IMG/VR virus record: IMGVR_UViG_3300020172_001413
Coordinates: 1-30,958 of that record
Direction: 5' to 3' (one strand)
Source of the DNA: a virus
Length of the DNA: 30,958 nt
The position numbers were made by a program, and so were the translations under genes. The notes beneath the pieces were generated by a model. That model made no database searches and had not been told where the DNA came from. It saw nothing but the letters and a program-made list of their open reading frames with translations. This document shows positions 28,511 to 30,958 of this stretch, in pieces. The first letter of the stretch is position 1. The number at the start of each line of letters is the position of its first letter.

Positions 28511-28539
28511 TTGACAAAATACGCAAAATCAACTATAAT
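28511..28539 (+). promoter_or_regulatory. Perfect-consensus sigma70 promoter for dioxygenase operon
   Basis: TTGACA at 28511-28516 and TATAAT at 28534-28539 with a 17-base spacer match the bacterial consensus exactly. The start site should fall near 28546, giving a leader of about 37 bases to the ATG at 28583, with AGAGG six bases before it. This predicts strong early transcription by host polymerase. Confidence 0.85.
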
Positions 28540-28547
28540 TTTCGTAT
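28519..28547 (+). promoter_or_regulatory. Operator-like dyad over the -10 region
   Basis: ATACGCAAAAT at 28519-28529 and ATTTTCGTAT at 28538-28547 form an inverted repeat with one unpaired base and an eight-base centre. It spans the spacer and the -10 box, where a bound repressor would block polymerase. A second small dyad, CGTTA / TAACG at 28554-28569, lies in the leader. No regulator gene is visible nearby. Confidence 0.4.
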
Positions 28548-28582
28548 ATATAACGTTATAGTGTTAACGCAAGAGGCTAAAG

Positions 28583-29884
28583 ATGGTAAAATTACTCATC
28601 CGCAAGAAACATGACTCAGAAGAAACACTTGGTACATTTATTACATGCGCCGAGTATACTGATCTTATTGTCACTGAAGATTGCGACTTGTATGCTGAGG
28701 ATCCCGTTGATCCAACGCATATTTCCGAAGAAAATATCATTTTCAAATTTCGTAAAAATACCTTCACGAAAGAAGAACTTGATCGTTGTTATGCAGGTTT
28801 GCGTGCAGCTGCTACTGAATCACAAAATCGTGGTATGGCTGCTGGACCACGTGGTGATCAGCTCGGTCAAGAAGGACGAGGCAACCGCGATTGGGTAACA
28901 GCTGAACATCTTGAAATTCTTTCATTCCTTGCTCGACCACTCAATACTATTGAAGATGGTACTACGCTGGAAAGTATTCGCGAAAGTCATAAGAACTTTT
29001 CTAAAGAAGAAACACGTGGTCAGGTTTGGCTCCGATCAGCAGTAACCAAAAAGTATCCTGAGTATCATGGTTGGTTTGATAAGTGGCTTGCTGGCTTACA
29101 TAATATGTCTCGCGAAGAACAGCGTCAGGAAGCGCAGTACGTCATTGATAATTACATCAGCGACACCAACTATGCTCAATCTGTAATGTCTGGTATTGCT
29201 GGATACTTTGATCGTTATCCTCGCATTCCTTTTGGCAGGGCGTGCGCTTATAATGAAAAAAACCCAGAAGCATTTGCTGAATCGTATCCATTTCTAAACA
29301 AACTAAATGATCAGTTTCGTGAACTTCTTCCTATTCGTTGGGGTAATCAGCGAGCAGAAGCTGACAAATGCGATCCTCGGTTTTTGATTGACAAAACAGT
29401 ATTCACAACTCTAACCGTCAATCATAACTGGCGTACTGCATGTCATCGCGATGCTGGTGATTTGCATGAAGGATTCTCAAACATCTGCGCGCTCGGCAAG
29501 GGTTGGGAAGGTGCGGAATTTATTCTTCCCGAGTACCGCATTGCTGTCAAATTATATCCAGGCGACATGTTGCTCGTCAATAATCATGGCGGTATTCACG
29601 GCAATGATGCGCTGATTGGCGATGATAATGATCGTATGACAATTGTTGCATATTTCCGCGAGAAAATGGTCGAACTCAAGTCGTGGGATTATGAACAGCT
29701 TCGTAAAAGTTACATTGAAGAGCGTCGTCAAAACAAAGAGCACAAATACTGGCGTCCGCTTTGGAATGGCGTCAGCCCCGACATGTGGAATGAACAAGAG
29801 TGGTTTGATTACATGAAGAAGCACAATATGGAAGATCCATACGCGAAAGAAAAGAATGCCAGCTTGGAGGATTTTTTCACCTAA
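28583..29884 (+). CDS. TET/JBP-like 2-oxoglutarate and Fe(II)-dependent dioxygenase
   Basis: A 433-residue protein whose second half is a double-stranded beta-helix dioxygenase. FTTLTVNHNWRTACHRDAGD gives the iron ligands His288-x-Asp290; ALGKGWEGAEFILPEYRIAVKLYPGDMLL follows; the distal ligand is His339 in GGIHGN, and Arg351 in DRMTIVAYFR is placed to hold 2-oxoglutarate. The VN.N..T..H.D.GD string and the G.EF..P.Y..AV block resemble TET/JBP enzymes, which oxidise the methyl group of thymine or 5-methylcytosine in DNA. The first 210 or so residues carry no domain I recognise. It leads an operon with an amidotransferase and amidoligase-like gene. A substrate other than DNA, such as a free nucleotide or protein side chain, cannot be excluded. 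Confidence 0.85.
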   Translation: MVKLLIRKKHDSEETLGTFITCAEYTDLIVTEDCDLYAEDPVDPTHISEENIIFKFRKNTFTKEELDRCYAGLRAAATESQNRGMAAGPRGDQLGQEGRGNRDWVTAEHLEILSFLARPLNTIEDGTTLESIRESHKNFSKEETRGQVWLRSAVTKKYPEYHGWFDKWLAGLHNMSREEQRQEAQYVIDNYISDTNYAQSVMSGIAGYFDRYPRIPFGRACAYNEKNPEAFAESYPFLNKLNDQFRELLPIRWGNQRAEADKCDPRFLIDKTVFTTLTVNHNWRTACHRDAGDLHEGFSNICALGKGWEGAEFILPEYRIAVKLYPGDMLLVNNHGGIHGNDALIGDDNDRMTIVAYFREKMVELKSWDYEQLRKSYIEERRQNKEHKYWRPLWNGVSPDMWNEQEWFDYMKKHNMEDPYAKEKNASLEDFFT

Positions 29885-30561
29885 TGTGTGGTGTTCTTGG
29901 CATTGCCATTAAGAACTTCAATGAGGGAGACTACGATTTAGTTCGTAGTCTCTTCATTCAATCCATGATTCGTGGTAAACATGCGACTGGTGTTTCCTAT
30001 GTTAAACATGGTAAAATTATAACTAATAAAGACCCCATTCCTGCGAATGAATGGATTCAGGAACAAAATTTAGAAGATTGGAAAAACGAAGATGGTAACT
30101 TATATTGTGTTGGTCATGTCCGTTACAGTACCAGCGATCTTAGCTTTAATCAGCCTATGGCGAATGATAAAATTGGAATCGTACACAACGGAGTTATCTC
30201 ACAAGAATCACCAGATACCTGGGAAAAACTATACGAGCTCAAAACAGAAACATCCAATGACTCAGAACTTATTTTGCGAGCAATGGAAAAACAAAAACCA
30301 GTATTGACATATTTTCACCCAGCATCAATGGCTGTTTGTGCTGTTCGTGCTGATAAAAAACTTGTAGCTTTTCGGAATGAAGAAAGACCATTATACTATA
30401 ATTGCTCACATAACACTATAGTGTTTGCTTCTACTTCTGATATTTTGAAAAAATCAGGTTTAAATAATCCAGTAAAAACACCGATGTATGAAGTTTTTAC
30501 TGTTGACAATTTTAATATTTTCAGTTATAATGTGTCTGTTAATGTAGAGGATTTGCAATGA
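29884..30561 (+). CDS. Class II glutamine amidotransferase
   Basis: A 225-residue stand-alone N-terminal-nucleophile glutaminase domain. Cys2 of MCGVLGIA is the nucleophile exposed when Met is removed. RGKHATG at residue 30, GHVRYST at 77-83, NQPM at 89, VHNGVI at 100-105 and NDSE at 125-128 match the glutamine-binding and catalytic elements of PurF, GlmS and AsnB. It should release ammonia from glutamine, but no synthetase domain is attached, so a partner protein must use it. The start overlaps the dioxygenase stop (TAATG) and the stop overlaps the next gene (ATGA). The adjacent amidoligase-like protein is the obvious partner. The phage deformylase at 27107 could help expose Cys2, a speculative link. 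Confidence 0.92.
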   Translation: MCGVLGIAIKNFNEGDYDLVRSLFIQSMIRGKHATGVSYVKHGKIITNKDPIPANEWIQEQNLEDWKNEDGNLYCVGHVRYSTSDLSFNQPMANDKIGIVHNGVISQESPDTWEKLYELKTETSNDSELILRAMEKQKPVLTYFHPASMAVCAVRADKKLVAFRNEERPLYYNCSHNTIVFASTSDILKKSGLNNPVKTPMYEVFTVDNFNIFSYNVSVNVEDLQ

Positions 30562-30958
30562 AATATGACAGAAATACTTTCACCTATGGTTTCGAGATTG
30601 AGTGGGGCGACATTGATCGTACAATGCCAATCCCACCAGAACTTGGTGCTTGGGAATACTGCGAAACTGACATCATCAATCTTCGCGATCCCTACCGTGG
30701 TCTTGGTTCTGATCCAAAGGGTATAAATCCTCCTGTTGGTGGCGAAATTAATACAAAGCCAACTAAGACAATTGATGAACAAGTTGATAATATCATGAAG
30801 TTGCATGATATGTTTGTTGCTCATGGCACACCACCGACTGCTGGTATTGTTAATCATGGTCATCTTCATATTCATGTTCCTGGCTTGACTGAAGATATCG
30901 ATGCTCTCAAACGACTCTCGAAATATCTTCGTGACAATCAGCATATGACTATTGATCG
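30558..30958 (+). CDS. Amidoligase-like (COOH-NH2 ligase) enzyme, 3' end missing
   Basis: An ATG at 30558, overlapping the amidotransferase stop, opens a frame that stays open for 133 codons to the window end. The visible part fits the amidoligase_2 family of the glutamine-synthetase-like COOH-NH2 ligase fold: YGFEIEWGD at residues 10-18, VGGEINTKPTKT at 60-71, and the histidine-rich strand HGHLHIHVPG at 100-109. These are the Glu and His positions used for ATP, metal and carboxylate binding. Such enzymes join an amine to a carboxylate. Known operons of this family often carry a class II glutamine amidotransferase, exactly as here. The catalytic C-terminal part lies outside the window, so the assignment is good but incomplete. 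Confidence 0.78.
   Translation, partial: MKYDRNTFTYGFEIEWGDIDRTMPIPPELGAWEYCETDIINLRDPYRGLGSDPKGINPPVGGEINTKPTKTIDEQVDNIMKLHDMFVAHGTPPTAGIVNHGHLHIHVPGLTEDIDALKRLSKYLRDNQHMTID

Follow-up and report, generated by a model that had tools for sequence, protein, structure and literature searches.

The window analysed here is an entire virus record of 30,958 bases (IMGVR_UViG_3300020172_001413) with T4-like gene content, including genes for a terminase, tail sheath, scaffold, major head protein, UvsW-type helicase, late sigma factor and SbcD-like nuclease. At its right end a promoter is followed, on the plus strand, by genes for a TET/JBP dioxygenase, a class II glutamine amidotransferase and a partial amidoligase. 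The promoter is a perfect sigma70-type match (TTGACA-17-TATAAT, 28511-28539) that is conserved 5′ of TET in most relatives: of 81 relatives, 52 have a site scoring at least 10 of 12 in front of TET, compared with 40 of 600 random pieces. The gene for the Fe(II)/2-oxoglutarate dioxygenase (433 aa; 28583-29884) is joined by TAATG to that of the stand-alone amidotransferase (225 aa; 29884-30561), which in turn meets the amidoligase gene (30558-30958) at ATGA; the promoter and both joints are as the first-pass annotation had described. That annotation had counted a single promoter, but a second perfect TTGACA-17-TATAAT site, promoter-like by its consensus match, lies in the 3′ end of the amidotransferase gene (30503-30531, plus strand), 26 bases 5′ of the amidoligase start. 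It had also presented the trio as an operon; all three genes are present, but they form just the start of one, cut off at the record end (30958) with 133 of about 305 amidoligase codons in place.

The dioxygenase is confirmed as a predicted member of the TET/JBP family by Pfam, catalytic residues and nearest fold. It scores 63 bits against Tet_JBP (PF12851; E 2.5e-17), for which the curated cut-off is 34.9. The four residues singled out at first reading, His288, Asp290, His339 and Arg351, correspond to the HxD...H iron triad and the 2OG-binding Arg and are identical in 86 of 86 aligned rows. Its structural model (pLDDT 76.5, with lower confidence around the HxD loop) has only TET enzymes or CMD1 among its 26 best PDB matches (CcTet, NgTet1, TET2, CMD1). 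A profile search, the check proposed for this protein, thus placed it in PF12851. Cultured carriers of TET include Stenotrophomonas phage DLP6 and Caulobacter phage Cr30, the latter with ADDT and kinase as well. In public records the relatives of this TET protein in DLP6, Cr30 and S-CBWM1 bear the label SNF2 DNA repair protein, which looks like a misnomer.

The second protein matches GATase_6 (PF13522) over the cut-off (E 6.5e-13), and its glutaminase-site residues Cys2, R80, N102, G103 and D126 are identical in 37 of 37 amidotransferase rows, which bears out its description as a class II enzyme with a catalytic Cys2. A search of NCBIfam with this protein returned nothing beyond distant glutaminase-domain matches, and a defence-system library gave no informative match to any of the trio. 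The partial amidoligase of the window has no Pfam match; the complete homolog in the relative L006 (305 aa) reaches 11.6 bits against Amidoligase_2 (PF12224) and that of phage Simon 16.5 bits, both below the cut-off of 22. The best PDB matches of an AF2 model of the L006 protein (pLDDT 86.4) are the glutathione synthetase GshF, GmaS, glutamine synthetases, PafA, gamma-glutamylcysteine ligase and YbdK; the best E is 1.9e-3, none passes E 0.001, and all the top matches belong to one superfamily (GS/GCS). Acidic and basic active-site positions (E13, E15, E63, H102, E213 and R215) are conserved. The predicted amidoligase identity is thereby supported at the level of the fold, outside any curated sequence model. 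A pattern search of genome contigs found no cellular amidoligase homologs, and no cultured phage with both TET and amidoligase was found.

The first-pass annotation had called for the sequence to the right of 30958. The record itself stops there, but the remaining genes can be listed from L006, the nearest relative, whose TET is 95% identical to that of the window and whose DNA matches at 86.7% identity through the window's last base. Behind the amidoligase, the L006 operon encodes a GNAT, a GIY-YIG/ParB-like protein, ADDT, the amino acid:DNA transferase of Pfam (PF18724; E 2.8e-23), and a P-loop kinase (PF18751; E 3.6e-11). None of the L006 operon proteins matches the 5-hmdU DNA kinase helical domain (PF18723/PF18747), the kinase there being of PF18751. 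By this comparison the window phage probably carries ADDT and kinase beyond 30958 as well.

The linkage of these genes extends well beyond L006. A collection seeded with the amidoligase added 68 further loci, some overlapping contigs already in the set. Of the 42 distinct amidoligase loci followed by 4.5 kb or more of sequence, all carry both ADDT and kinase and 39 carry GNAT; where there is room, the amidotransferase is found in 68 of 68 and TET in 57 of 58. The amidoligase set is kept even when TET has been relocated, to a position 3′ of the kinase (L116-118) or between ADDT and kinase (L148). In L147 TET lies elsewhere in the contig, outside the amidoligase cassette, and it is also not in the cassette of L126.

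Comparison of close relatives indicates that exchangeable cassettes adjoin a TET gene that stays in place on their left. The DNA homology of the window stops at 29851 with L008 and at 29877 with L007 and runs on with L006 and L012, placing the left boundary of the exchangeable cassette in the 3′ end of the TET gene (29851-29884, plus strand). L006, L007 and L008, the nearest relatives, represent three different cassettes, and relatives with TET 88-92% identical carry either a glycosyltransferase or ADDT and kinase without amidoligase. Of 58 TET loci in which both cassette ends are visible, 24 have neither ADDT nor kinase, 22 have the amidotransferase set together with ADDT and kinase, 11 have ADDT and kinase without the amidotransferase/amidoligase pair, usually after a methyltransferase-like gene, and one has the kinase alone. 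ADDT is found in 22 of the 22 cassettes having the amidotransferase versus 11 of the 36 lacking it. A glycosyltransferase recurs in the class free of ADDT and kinase; its L055 copy matches PF20691 (TAGT, TET-Associated Glycosyltransferase), and L039 has a different glycosyltransferase with a weak PF20691 match. Mapped on the TET tree, cassette type shows a minimum of 20 switches, and the well-supported branches require each type to change no fewer than 6-7 times. The association itself is phylogenetically clumped: a phylogenetic pair test gave five independent pairs on well-supported branches, none contrary, and did not reach significance (median p 0.25).

Taken as a whole, the operon probably directs hypermodification of phage DNA, in which TET, kinase, ADDT and then the amidotransferase/amidoligase pair act on thymine. 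The TET/JBP enzyme would act on phage DNA once it has been replicated, hydroxylating thymine at its methyl group to give 5-hydroxymethyluracil, and the downstream P-loop kinase would phosphorylate the new hydroxyl. ADDT would then exchange the phosphate for an amino acid, joined through its amino group. With ammonia from the class II amidotransferase, the amidoligase could convert the carboxylate of that amino acid to an amide or join another amine to it, and GNAT may acylate the product. Such a bulky base would block host nucleases. Base hypermodification with a TET start is strongly supported because of the fold, the ADDT/kinase linkage and the replacement of the cassette by TAGT; we infer the identity of the base, the amino acid, the order of the steps and the protective effect. 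The first-pass annotation had reached a similar conclusion from the trio, and its TET start holds on these grounds, but the three genes do not make up a pathway on their own. The route it sketched, in which a carboxyl group is formed by oxidation and then converted directly to an amide, is not the best one, since relatives carry kinase/ADDT machinery of the 5-hydroxymethyl-dU type, and the amino acid is therefore probably joined via a phosphorylated hydroxymethyl, with the amidotransferase/amidoligase pair working close to that step.

A different order of steps is possible though rather doubtful: the pair could work in solution, making a small amide or peptide-like product that ADDT would then attach to the phosphorylated base. 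In known families the usual substrates of GS-fold ligases are small amino acids, gamma-glutamylcysteine ligase and GmaS are among the top fold matches, and the strict linkage to ADDT is compatible with either order. However, CmoY of phage S-B43, described in 2025, is an ATP-dependent ligase that forms an amide on the DNA base itself (PMC12783734), and 11 of 33 ADDT cassettes lack the pair, which indicates that ADDT can use another donor. Amidation or extension on the DNA remains the preferred sequence of events.

The target had been given as thymine or 5-methylcytosine, and gene content favours the former. No C5-cytosine methyltransferase (PF00145) was found in any of 34 TET-bearing records, which are mostly fragments and include contigs of 99-174 kb and four complete phages; the sole C5-methyltransferase of two scans lies on an amidoligase contig without TET. 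Thymidylate-synthase-type enzymes include dUMP and dCMP hydroxymethylases, and a hydroxymethylase of this type is absent from the same 34 records, a Cr30 homolog excepted. ThyX, whose product is ordinary thymidylate, is present in four TET-bearing contigs. In phage Simon, which has no TET, the amidoligase adjoins a 5-hmdU-kinase helical domain and a thymidylate synthase homolog, as if the two routes to a hydroxymethyl group were interchangeable. The lack of a C5-methyltransferase and, outside Cr30, of thymidylate-synthase-type enzymes, the presence of ThyX and the Simon arrangement together favour thymine. The kinase alone is not a marker of thymine, because in phage Melnitz TET and a kinase from this family neighbour a C5-methyltransferase, and ADDT is missing.

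Melnitz is also the counter-case that keeps cytosine in consideration as an unlikely target, whereby 5-methylcytosine made by the host or the phage would be oxidized to 5hmC, phosphorylated and decorated. Solved TET enzymes use 5mC, which could come from the host, and some cassettes with ADDT only encode a DNA methyltransferase-like protein with an SPPC motif. Set against this are the lack of PF00145 enzymes in the TET-bearing records, the TET-free setting of the single C5-methyltransferase found, and the known occurrence of ADDT in thymine systems. The SPPC protein belongs to PF01555 and is encoded between TET and ADDT, with SPPC replacing the usual D/S-PPY motif (L037:2538-3197 and L081:9895-10554).

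Modification of a protein, cell-wall peptide or small metabolite, originally named as the main alternative, is now put low, given the 42 of 42 ADDT and kinase linkage and the exclusively TET-type best folds. It is very unlikely that the pair modifies the host cell wall or a protein and neighbours TET by chance: such a role has been proposed for phage GATase/amidoligase pairs of phiEco32 and LUZ24-like phages (PMC10580990, PMC11945000), but the linkage to ADDT and kinase persists where TET has moved (L116-118, L148) or sits outside the cassette (L126, L147), and the LUZ24-type companions ATP-grasp and GGCT are missing from the L006 operon. That the dioxygenase and its partners target RNA, a free nucleotide or a metabolite is highly improbable; 2OG dioxygenases are versatile, but the best folds are all DNA-base TET enzymes and the alternative cassettes (glycosyltransferase, kinase/ADDT) are of types known from DNA modification. 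Carboxymethyl chemistry of the CmoX type was rejected, as no C5-type carboxymethyltransferase was found beside the ligase.

Several known systems share parts of the proposed thymine pathway. Phages M6, ViI and W-14 follow a route from 5hmdU through a kinase to amine transfer, with 5hmdU entering with the nucleotide pool (PMC6449724). They share the ADDT family, seen in L006 and other cassettes, a P-loop kinase and the hydroxymethyl-phosphate-amine logic, whereas here TET would make 5hmdU in DNA, the kinase is of a separate family (PF18751), and amidotransferase, amidoligase and GNAT are added. The dUMP hydroxymethylase of M6 and ViI, a thymidylate synthase homolog, is absent here except in Cr30 and phage Simon. 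Another example is Rhodococcus phage Tonitrus, for which a "five-gene thymine hypermodification system" with TET, aGPT-Pplase2 (ADDT) and kinase has been described by annotation only (PMC11955845). Tonitrus likewise gathers a TET-like protein, ADDT, a PF18751 kinase and ParB in one cluster, but lacks amidotransferase, amidoligase and GNAT, and its TET and ADDT sequences are distant. The systems that combine TET with TAGT have the same TET in the same place and phage group; there the hydroxymethyl is glycosylated, in contrast to the kinase/ADDT chemistry here. Other phage TETs are accompanied by C5-methyltransferases, of which none were found here. The CmoX/CmoY system, which yields carboxymethylcytosine-glycine, resembles this one in its ATP-dependent amide formation as a late step and in nearby ParB proteins, but it starts with a carboxymethyl-SAM methyltransferase and uses an asparagine-synthetase-type ligase, where TET and a GS-fold ligase are predicted here. 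The phiEco32/LUZ24 modules similarly pair a phage class II amidotransferase with an amidoligase; they differ in their proposed cell-wall function, their ligase families and their lack of TET, ADDT and kinase.

The statement that no pathway with this trio had been described thus holds in part. A core of TET, an ADDT-type enzyme and kinase is already known in outline, as annotation in Tonitrus, but two features appear to be new, the extension by amidotransferase, amidoligase and GNAT and the replacement of entire decoration cassettes next to an unchanging TET; literature coverage was partial, and a prior prediction is possible. The full proposal is advanced tentatively, at a little under even likelihood: a new hypermodified thymine that is hydroxymethylated in DNA by TET, receives an amino acid via a phosphate, is amidated or extended on DNA by a GS-fold ligase with a separate amidotransferase and is further acylated, with the cassette exchanged for glycosylation while TET stays constant. 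If true, oxidation by TET within DNA and phosphate-activated amino acid transfer would be united with amide chemistry on the base, and a swap of decoration cassettes would change the chemical identity of the DNA while TET persists. Since these naturally occurring phages are nearly the same apart, in the main, from the decorating cassette, they allow direct tests of how far each chemistry protects, and the enzymes would be candidate tools for writing amides on DNA.

Further variation was observed around these genes. Cr30 has an annotated myo-inositol-1-phosphate synthase gene 3′ of ADDT, and L056 and L059 encode similar-looking proteins, recognized by eye, between ADDT and kinase, hinting at inositol as a decoration. 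Relatives of the kinase are annotated as terminase small subunit or adenylate kinase in public records. A cassette without TET in L165 (7841-13272) combines ParB, amidotransferase, ADDT, amidoligase, GNAT, kinase and a radical SAM protein, on a contig that also has a C5-methyltransferase match. In Vibrio phage 2.275.O (L088:7890-12147), which lacks TET, an amidoligase homolog and GATase lie amid 7-deazaguanine genes. A glycosyltransferase-like protein, again by eye, is encoded between the amidotransferase and a divergent amidoligase in L072 (2658-3746; no Pfam match) and L076 (11979-13064). A low-molecular-weight phosphatase adjoins the amidoligase in L087 (8872-9390; PF01451), as does a similar-looking sequence in L076 (13993-14424).
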